Assembly (NCBI RefSeq): GCF_000010305.1
Contig: NC_012489.1
Span: 3,727,646-3,791,645 of the forward strand
Source of the DNA: Gemmatimonas aurantiaca T-27
GTDB taxonomy: Bacteria; Gemmatimonadota; Gemmatimonadetes; Gemmatimonadales; Gemmatimonadaceae
DNA: 64,000 nt
Reading direction: 5' to 3'
The notes beneath the pieces were generated by a model. That model made no database searches, had not been told where the DNA came from, and was given only the letters and a program-made list of their open reading frames with translations. Every line of letters starts with the position of its first letter. The stretch's first letter is position 1. Positions 36,294 to 39,281 of the stretch are shown here, in pieces. A program made the translations under genes and the position numbers.

Positions 36294-36435
36294 GCAGCAA
36301 CGCTAGCACGTGACGTCGCCGTTGGCGCGGGGTCGGGGACCAACGGTACGCACTGGACCGTACAACGATGGCCTTCCGACGTGGAATGGCGCACTTTCCA
36401 GCAGGCACCTTCCGCTGGAACTCTGTCGACGCCCG

Positions 36436-37473
36436 ATGACCGCGCCCGCAACTGATCACCTGAACGACACCGACGCCGCCGACATCTCGGCGCCCGCCCC
36501 GCCCGCTGATTCCGACCTGGGCTTCGGCCGGGTCGTGGCTCAACAGACCCGCGGACGATTCCTCTCCAAAGACGGTCGGGCCACCGCCCGGAAGTTCGGA
36601 CTCGGAGGACAACGCACCGAACATCTCTACCTGCGCGCGCTGAATGTGCCGTGGGGCACATTCCTGCTGTGGACGGTGGGCGCGGTCCTGCTGATGAACG
36701 GCATCTTTGCGCTGGGTTATGGCTCGCTGGGCAGTGGCGCAATCGCTGGCGCGGGCACCTTGGGCCTCGACGACCCGTTCATGCGGGCCTTCGTGTACAG
36801 CGTGGGCGCGTTCACGACCACGGGCACCGACGGCCTGCATGCCATGGGCAGCGCCGCTCATCTGCTCACCATCATGCAGTCGCTGATCGGTCCGCTCACC
36901 GGCATGATCATCGCCGGCCTTGTCATCGCGCGCCTCACCCGCCCCCGCGCGCGTCTGCGTTTCAGCGAGTCGGCCGTGATCGCGCCATACGAAGGCGGAC
37001 GTGGACTGATGTTCCGCTTCGTGAACGAGTTGCCCAGCGAACTCACCGATGTGACGGTGAGCGTCAATCTCTTCTGGTACGAAGACATCGATGGCAAGCG
37101 CGAACGCAACTTCCACGTGCTCACTCTGGAGCGTGAACACGTGGCGTTTTTCCCGCTGCATTGGACGGTGGTGCATCCCATCACCGCCGATAGCCCGATG
37201 CGTGGCGTGACGCCGGAGCGCCTGTGCAGCGGAGACACGGAAATCCTCGTGCTCATCACCGCCCACGAAGAGACGTTCTCCACGCATGTCTCCGTGCGGG
37301 CGTCCTATCGATGGGATGAGGTCAGCTGGGATGCGAAGTTTGCCAACATCTTCACGACCGCCGGTGACGACGCACTGGCCATCGATGTGGATCGTCTGAG
37401 TCGTTTCGATCGACTGCCCGAAGGCACCACCCGCATCCCGGCGCCGGCCGAAGGCGCTCCCATCAGCGCCTGA
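36436..37473 (+). CDS. Kir-type (inward-rectifier) channel homologue with abnormal filter
   Basis: A 345-residue relative of KirBac channels. In order it has a slide helix and M1 (HLYLRALNVPWGTFLLWTV, residues 64-82), a pore helix (FMRAFVYSVGAFT), M2 (LIGPLTGMIIAGLVIARL) and the cytoplasmic Ig-like domain (RPRARLRFSESAVIAPY to the end). The KirBac filter Thr-Val-Gly-Tyr-Gly is replaced by Thr-Thr-Gly-Thr-Asp (residues 128-132) within TTTGTDGLHAMG. Potassium selectivity is therefore doubtful. The rest of the fold is well kept, arguing for a functional channel of altered selectivity or a ligand-gated regulator. ATG 36436 was chosen; the upstream extension is low-complexity sequence. The next gene, convergent, is a cation/proton antiporter. 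Confidence 0.85.
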   Translation: MTAPATDHLNDTDAADISAPAPPADSDLGFGRVVAQQTRGRFLSKDGRATARKFGLGGQRTEHLYLRALNVPWGTFLLWTVGAVLLMNGIFALGYGSLGSGAIAGAGTLGLDDPFMRAFVYSVGAFTTTGTDGLHAMGSAAHLLTIMQSLIGPLTGMIIAGLVIARLTRPRARLRFSESAVIAPYEGGRGLMFRFVNELPSELTDVTVSVNLFWYEDIDGKRERNFHVLTLEREHVAFFPLHWTVVHPITADSPMRGVTPERLCSGDTEILVLITAHEETFSTHVSVRASYRWDEVSWDAKFANIFTTAGDDALAIDVDRLSRFDRLPEGTTRIPAPAEGAPISA

Positions 37474-37490
37474 TCGGCCGTGTAGTGGCC

Positions 37491-39095
37491 CTACCGCGCG
37501 GCGGTGTGGGCCACTGCGCCATGGGACCCGGCATCCACGTGCTCGCCGCGCAGGGCGTCAAAGTCCAGCTCCCGTTCCAATTCGCGCAGCACCTCGTCCG
37601 AGATGGCCCCCTCATTGCGCAGCCGCACCAGCAAGCGGCGTTCGGCTTCCCGCATGCGCGCCCGCACCTCGTGGCGTGCATGCGCCCCATGGGGATCGCG
37701 ATGATGTTCCTTGCGCTCGCGCAGTTCATGCCGGAGCCAGGCCACGTCTGCCTCACTGAGGGAGCCTTCCCGCGCGGCGTCTTCCAGCTCTTCGGCAGCA
37801 CGGCGCATTGCTTCCAGCCTGGCGAACCGTTCTTCGTCATGCTGCCGGGTTTCCGGCGCGAACTTGAATGACCGAATGATCGGCGCCAGCGAGCAGCCCT
37901 GCACGACCAACGTGACGAGGATGACCACCATCGTCACGTACAGCAGTTGCTCGCGAAACGGGAACGCACTGCCATCGGCCAGCGTGAGCGGGAGAGCCAG
38001 CGCCGTGGCCAACGACACGATGCCACGCATGCTCGTCCAGGCCACCAGCACCAGCGACCGCACCGGTGGCGCGGGGTCACGTCGCGCGATCGAACGATCG
38101 AGCCAGCGCGGCAGATAGGTGGCGATCGGCACCCACAACAGACGCACCACGATCACCACGATCGAAATCACCAGCCCGGGCATGAGCAGCTCCGGCAATT
38201 CCGCCGCTTCACTGGTGCGGAGCAGTTTGGCGAATTGCATGCCGAGTAGCACGAAGATCATCGCATTCAGCACGAACACGAGCACATCCCACACCGCGTT
38301 CGACTGCAGACGCGACTTGGGGCCGACCGCGGTGGAGAGATGCTGGCGCGTGTAGAGACCACCGGCCACACAGGCGAGCACCGCCGACACGTGCAGCGTT
38401 TCAGCGAGCATCCAGGCCGCATAGGGTGCCGCGAGAATGAGCAGGGTTTCGGCCAGCTCATCACGTGTCCGCCGCGCGCCACGAATGATCAGCCATCCCA
38501 CAGCCAGGCCGATCAACGTGCCAATGCCGGCGTCCACGAAAAACCGCACGATCGATTCGCCGAAGCTGAACACGCCGGCCACGGCGGCGACAACCGCGGA
38601 CCGATACAACACGAGGGCCGACGCATCGTTGACGAGGCTCTCTCCCTCGAGAATCACGATCACGCGACGTGGCACCGGCAGGCGCGACACCACGGCCGCA
38701 GCCGCCACGGCATCGGGAGGCGAGACAATGGCGCCCAGCGCGATGGCCACCGCCCATGGCATCCCGGGGAACAGCGCGCGGGCCACCACCGCCACACCAA
38801 CGGTGGTCACCACCACCAACCCGATCGCCAACAGCGCGATCGGTCGGCGATTGGCCTTGAACTCACGCAACGAGGTGAAGTACGCCGCGGCCCAGAGGAT
38901 GGGCGGCAGGAACACGAAGAAGACGAGATCGGGTTCCAGTTCGGGCACCGTCACACTCGGGATGAACCCGAGCGCGAGGCCGGCCAGCACCTGTAGCACC
39001 GGCGCCGGCACCGGCAAGCGGCGTCCGAACGCGGTGAGCGCAGCCACCAGGGCCGCGAACGCGATGCCGATCAGGATGGGAGAATGCGAGTTCAC
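37491..39095 (-). CDS. CPA1-family Na+(K+)/H+ antiporter
   Basis: A protein of 534 residues with about 12 membrane helices in its first 410 residues. The motifs FVFLPPILWAAAYF, AIVSPPDAVAAAAV (with the transport-site Asp of the P-P-D motif), ILEGESLVNDASALVLY and WTSMRGIVSLATALALP are hallmarks of the NhaP/NHE-type CPA1 group. A charged helical C-terminal tail of about 110 residues, rich in Glu, Arg and His, could be regulatory. It exchanges sodium or potassium for protons across the inner membrane. The start is GTG at 39095 just before the first helix; the frame to 39161 adds no visible feature. Confidence 0.9.
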   Translation of the reverse strand: MNSHSPILIGIAFAALVAALTAFGRRLPVPAPVLQVLAGLALGFIPSVTVPELEPDLVFFVFLPPILWAAAYFTSLREFKANRRPIALLAIGLVVVTTVGVAVVARALFPGMPWAVAIALGAIVSPPDAVAAAAVVSRLPVPRRVIVILEGESLVNDASALVLYRSAVVAAVAGVFSFGESIVRFFVDAGIGTLIGLAVGWLIIRGARRTRDELAETLLILAAPYAAWMLAETLHVSAVLACVAGGLYTRQHLSTAVGPKSRLQSNAVWDVLVFVLNAMIFVLLGMQFAKLLRTSEAAELPELLMPGLVISIVVIVVRLLWVPIATYLPRWLDRSIARRDPAPPVRSLVLVAWTSMRGIVSLATALALPLTLADGSAFPFREQLLYVTMVVILVTLVVQGCSLAPIIRSFKFAPETRQHDEERFARLEAMRRAAEELEDAAREGSLSEADVAWLRHELRERKEHHRDPHGAHARHEVRARMREAERRLLVRLRNEGAISDEVLRELERELDFDALRGEHVDAGSHGAVAHTAAR

Positions 39096-39281
39096 GCGAG
39101 GGTGCTGAAGTGAAGAGGCGGTGATGCTCCCGAATCTGTCGACCCGGACGCCCCTTTGCACTCCAGTGGCGTGTCACGCCTCGGCAGGCCACCTGTTGAG
39201 CGTGGTGCGCCTCCCCATATTGCGAGAAGCAGGGTGTCCGCGCCCGAGGGTACCCATGGTGTCACCACAGCCCGATCCACA

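Follow-up and report, generated by a model that had tools for sequence, protein, structure and literature searches.

The window, a 64,000-nucleotide stretch of the Gemmatimonas aurantiaca T-27 genome, contains an intact open reading frame for a Kir-type channel subunit and, converging on it from the opposite strand, the gene of a CPA1 Na+/H+ antiporter. The two reading frames end 17 nt apart. The channel ORF begins with an ATG codon; the same frame is also open upstream, from a GTG at 36310. The features discussed below are the following (window coordinates).

36436..37473, + strand: Kir-type channel subunit, 345 aa, selectivity filter TTGTD, almost certainly NirBac2.1 (ORF, Pfam, phmmer, AlphaFold, Foldseek; name from PMC4607889)
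36610..36642, + strand: slide (interfacial) helix, residues 59-69 (AlphaFold/DSSP)
36652..36726, + strand: M1 helix, residues 73-97 (AlphaFold/DSSP)
36775..36816, + strand: pore helix, residues 114-127, with Gly at residue 124 (AlphaFold/DSSP, clade alignment)
36817..36831, + strand: selectivity filter T128-T-G-T-D132, replacing TxGYG (sequence, alignments)
36850..36939, + strand: M2 helix, residues 139-168, with the hinge G152-P153 and Ile164 at the KirBac bundle-crossing Phe/Tyr position (AlphaFold/DSSP, clade alignment)
36955..37410, + strand: cytoplasmic Kir (IRK_C) beta domain, residues 174-325 (Pfam IRK_C, E 9.6e-18)
37491..39161, - strand: paired CPA1 Na+/H+ antiporter with the motif ESLVNDA, convergent with the channel (TIGR00831 above cut-off)

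The channel and its filter

The initial annotation had recognised a Kir-family fold lacking the K+ signature, and both points were borne out. In a phmmer search of PDB sequences, residues 39-321 of the channel matched KirBac3.1 (E 1.8e-42), and its T-T-G-T-D fell on the T-I-G-Y-G of that protein. The Pfam IRK_C model gave a clear match, and the transmembrane model IRK remained below its cut-off (E 0.1). An AlphaFold model, computed as a monomer from a 36-sequence alignment, reached a mean pLDDT of 81.4 (about 90 in the pore region) and displayed the complete set of Kir/KirBac (IRK) superfamily features: slide helix, M1, pore helix, M2 and the C-terminal Kir beta domain. KirBac3.1 structures were its best PDB matches in Foldseek (E 1.1e-27), at low TM-scores, the model being a monomer whose domain orientation is probably different. 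The channel thus has the architecture of the family and carries TTGTD where K+-selective Kir/KirBac channels have TxG(Y/F)G; homology to these channels combined with a non-canonical filter is what characterises a NirBac at the sequence level.

Neither the channel nor its TTGTD filter is new, both having been known since 2015. Zubcevic et al. (PMC4607889) described NirBac2.1 (YP_002762692) from G. aurantiaca T-27, a protein about 35% identical to KirBac1.1 whose filter reads TTGTD, and re-sequenced the gene from genomic DNA. Organism, filter and Kir architecture all coincide, and the window channel is almost certainly NirBac2.1. That paper deals with a single NirBac2.1 sequence, makes no mention of an orthologous clade or of filter drift, and contains no antiporter or gene-context terms. 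A full-text search of the open-access literature for NirBac follow-up yielded the trypanosomal channel TbIRK as the only relevant item, and no paper linking KirBac, antiporter and gene neighbourhood. Three points, to which we now turn, appear to be new: there is a whole filter-less clade, its tyrosine was lost a single time, and the channel is strictly paired with an antiporter.

A clade that has lost the filter aromatic

The relatives of the channel split into two groups separated by a gap, one at 53-71% identity and the other at 44% or below. From the first group, hereafter the clade, 39 members could be read, and these were compared with 71 fetched members of the second. Tyr or Phe occupies filter position 4 in none of the 39 clade members versus all 71 of the other Kirs, whose filters invariably read TIGYG, TIGFG or TVGYG. 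The clade filters are TTGTG (8 members), TTGTD (7), TTGVD (3), TTGSD (2), TAGTG (2) and seventeen others found once each. An acidic residue stands at position 5 in 14 members, mostly of the Gemmatimonas group; the remaining 25 have mostly Gly, Ala, Ser or Thr there. When the pore-loop columns were left out of the tree, all 39 sequences fell on one side of a branch of length 0.95 with an SH-aLRT value of 100. On this tree the aromatic at position 4 changes once, the acid at position 5 has to change four times inside the clade, and 11 changes are needed for that position as a whole; the ancestral clade filter deduced by parsimony is T-[TVA]-G-T-[GA]. Since the aromatic changes a single time and the acid four times, the founding event was the loss of the tyrosine and not the gain of an acid. 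Judged from these sequences, the altered filter marks out a clade of proteins from Gemmatimonadales. The initial annotation had asked whether TTGTD itself recurs across a clade of intact sequences and had stressed the acidic residue. Absence of the aromatic is indeed shared by the intact genes of the clade; the exact motif is confined to 7 of the 39 members, and the acid is not the defining change.

A second, independent species-genome scan, with an alignment query, returned 35 further such records with readable filters, partly overlapping the assemblies of the first survey, and these followed the same pattern. NirBac2 and a canonical KirBac occur together in nine genomes (G008, G019, G029, G037, G044, G136, G219, G377 and G381). 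Pairwise dN/dS values of the NirBac2 genes range from 0.03 to 0.25; the genes are therefore under purifying selection. Sequencing error, chance, a pseudogene and an oddity of this strain were all rejected, on account of the loss shared by orthologues, this dN/dS range and the re-sequencing of the gene (PMC4607889).

Filters departing from the signature were also seen among other Kir relatives. Two of these, with 33-35% identity (L160 4001-4897 and L161 4001-4924), come from MAGs labelled "bacterium" and Patescibacteria; their filters read TLGSS in place of TxGYG, and the K+ signature may have been lost independently there. The match in L161 is interrupted by one in-frame stop; no CPA1 gene was found nearby at L160. 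A Pseudomonadota relative (L155 4001-4903) has TVGYE, the last Gly being replaced by Glu.

The clade differs from the other Kirs outside the filter as well. The pore helix has Gly, Ser or Ala at residue 124 in 39/39 clade members versus Glu, Gln, His or Asp in 71/71 of the others. At residue 164 in M2 the clade has Ile, Val or Leu, and Phe or Tyr is present in 68 of the 71 other Kirs; a Pro follows the hinge Gly in 35/39 versus 0/71. In the phmmer alignment residue 164 corresponds to Tyr132 of KirBac3.1, the bundle-crossing position, at which the aromatic side chain acts as inner gate. KirBac3.1 and KirBac1.1, which share the fold at about 35% identity, differ from the window channel in having a TIGYG filter, Gln or Glu in the pore helix and an aromatic at the M2 bundle crossing. 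The changes at residues 124 and 164 and at the hinge therefore indicate that the conduction path was rebuilt at several points beyond the filter.

Pairing with a CPA1 antiporter

The neighbouring gene product scores 378.6 bits against a cut-off of 279.6 for TIGR00831, which places it among CPA1 antiporters. Its Asn-Asp motif, ESLVNDA, is kept in all 62 readable orthologues; such a motif is usual in electroneutral exchangers. The channel was found in 36 of 395 genomes of the phylum (a count uncorrected for kinship), and an antiporter orthologue, defined by at least 58% identity, in the same 36; the best antiporter outside those genomes reaches about 45%. Among 100 near-relative genomes, both genes occur in the same 27. 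The two surveys overlap, and the genome sets were compared by eye. All 66 loci holding both genes show the convergent, tail-to-tail arrangement, with a median gap of 17.5 nt (ends taken as the first in-frame stop, some assemblies being counted from both collections). The reading frames overlap in 20 of these loci, in 16 of them by exactly 4 nt, so that expression of both genes would necessarily give convergent transcripts with overlapping 3' ends. Such an overlap may regulate the pair. In the window, the stop-codon region of the two genes spans 37470-37494. The suggestion in the initial annotation that the antiporter is a meaningful neighbour is thus upheld by an identical genome distribution and a conserved layout.

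Could the two genes simply have moved and been lost together, their pairing having no functional meaning? Adjacent genes share a common fate; hence the identical distribution partly follows from linkage, and co-occurrence does not provide independent evidence in each genome. Furthermore, convergent genes do not form an operon and their layout is therefore no proof of co-expression, a point that also counts against the Na+ re-entry role proposed below. However, apart from the pair and its shadow frames, no gene lying within 4 kb recurs in more than four of 29 distant loci, and neither a lone channel nor a lone antiporter orthologue was found among the 395 genomes. Channel loci without a visible antiporter stop at a contig edge, with one exception: in G025 about 20 kb separates the two genes, and both have been kept in the same orientation. 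We thus regard a meaningless pairing as unlikely. When the surroundings of 20 canonical KirBac genes (10-12.5 kb each) were searched at E 1e-3, none contained a CPA1 homologue.

Three loci deserve separate mention. The insert of about 20 kb in G025 (L185/L186, G025:C5:341000-366500) includes a protein-kinase-like ORF. A NirBac2-CPA1 pair lies in a MAG labelled Planctomycetota (L136 4001-4954); either the bin is mixed or wrongly labelled, or the pair was transferred beyond the phylum. In G086, one NirBac2 record sits at a contig end and a partial one, beside the antiporter, at the start of another contig (L143/L149); these are either two copies or an assembly overlap.

A proposed route for Na+ re-entry

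We propose, with a probability of roughly 0.55, that NirBac2.1 is a non-selective, mainly monovalent cation pore that lets Na+ re-enter the cell for the tail-to-tail CPA1 antiporter. The protein would form a homotetramer with a remodelled K+ filter. Deprived of the filter tyrosine and the pore-helix Glu/Gln, the two outer K+ sites should lose their scaffold and only the inner T-T-G sites would be left, as in NaK and CNG channels; hence the predicted non-selective monovalent flow. Na+ would re-enter down its gradient through NirBac2.1, so that the antiporter could go on exchanging internal Na+ for H+, and the resulting local Na+ cycle would serve cytoplasmic pH and cation balance. The position of NirBac2 beside an antiporter would fit the scheme described in alkaliphilic Bacillus, where Na+ re-entry via NaVBP or the non-selective NsvBa is proposed to supply cation/proton antiporters and to hold cytoplasmic pH (PMC4225499). 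NaVBP and NsvBa are 6-TM voltage-gated channels and not Kir proteins, so the resemblance is one of working only.

As to the ions carried, the initial annotation had named Na+, Ca2+ or non-selective flow. Non-selective monovalent flow is favoured by two other NirBacs, NirBac1.1 and NirBac1.2 of Anaeromyxobacter, which are activated by POPG and, when reconstituted, show little selectivity among monovalent cations (PMC4607889). Selectivity for Na+ or Ca2+ based on the Asp is the weaker guess, because the acid is present in 14/39 clade members and the aromatic is lost in 39/39. NirBac1.1 and NirBac1.2 resemble the window channel in combining a Kir domain with a non-canonical filter; however, their whole P-loop is unrelated to those of K+ channels, whereas that of the window channel is recognisable, with changes in the filter and nearby residues. 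This difference counts against carrying their non-selectivity over to NirBac2.1, as does, for the proposed role as a whole, the fact that purification of NirBac2.1 itself proved problematic and was dropped, leaving no recordings of it in that study (PMC4607889). The T-27 genome encodes one Ion_trans_2 channel, and no other Kir and no TrkH match were found in it. It also contains six Na_H_Exchanger genes, the paired one included, and the five extras again speak against the Na+ re-entry role.

The protein might instead not be a working channel at all, serving as a Kir-fold sensor or subunit whose pore has decayed and whose cytoplasmic domain was kept, perhaps to regulate the antiporter. Such decay would agree with filter position 5 being more variable than 81% of the clade columns, yet the pore-loop and M2 residues S122, F126, T127, T128, G130, G138 and G152 are invariant or nearly so, and D113 and F115 at the start of the pore helix are invariant. 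Given also that stable, conducting oligomers are known from other NirBacs (PMC4607889), we consider this improbable. Slightly less probable still is a channel that continues to prefer K+, the T-T-G-T-x backbone and adjoining residues supplying enough carbonyl and hydroxyl sites. The precedent is TbIRK of Trypanosoma brucei, a eukaryotic acidocalcisome channel with the filter GGYVG, which is a Kir homologue devoid of the signature and yet moderately K+-selective, with a pK/pNa above 7 (PMC5429665); it shows that non-selectivity of NirBac2.1 is not certain and thereby weighs against our preferred reading. Both NirBacs assayed have nevertheless lost selectivity (PMC4607889). Moreover, although most clade members retain T128 and G130, GYG or GFG is invariant in the 71 neighbouring Kirs whereas the clade filter drifts freely. 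Acidic rings confer Na+ or Ca2+ selectivity in Nav and Cav channels, and the Asp or Glu at position 5 of 14 clade members could be taken in the same sense. Least probable in our view is nonetheless a Na+- or Ca2+-selective channel with a high-field-strength site made by a ring of four Asp132, as the 25 members lacking the acid keep the same partner antiporter, the acid needs its four separate changes on the tree, and NirBac1.2, though its loop differs, is impermeable to Ca2+ (PMC4607889).

Returning to the non-selective pore, one may tentatively go further and view NirBac2 and CPA1 as the two genes of a dedicated Na+-cycle module in Gemmatimonadales, derived from a Kir channel that was converted once, from K+ to non-selective conduction, and has been kept only with one antiporter. 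We would put this slightly short of an even chance; the genomic association that such a module calls for is observed. If true, a NirBac would for the first time have a defined role in the cell. What prokaryotic Kir-type channels do there, called unclear in PMC4607889, becomes a testable question with the clade and the pairing. The strict pairing with one antiporter yields a specific hypothesis on what a cell gains by keeping a non-selective pore, and the loss of one tyrosine followed by filter drift in some 40 sequences amounts to a natural mutagenesis series for K+ selectivity.
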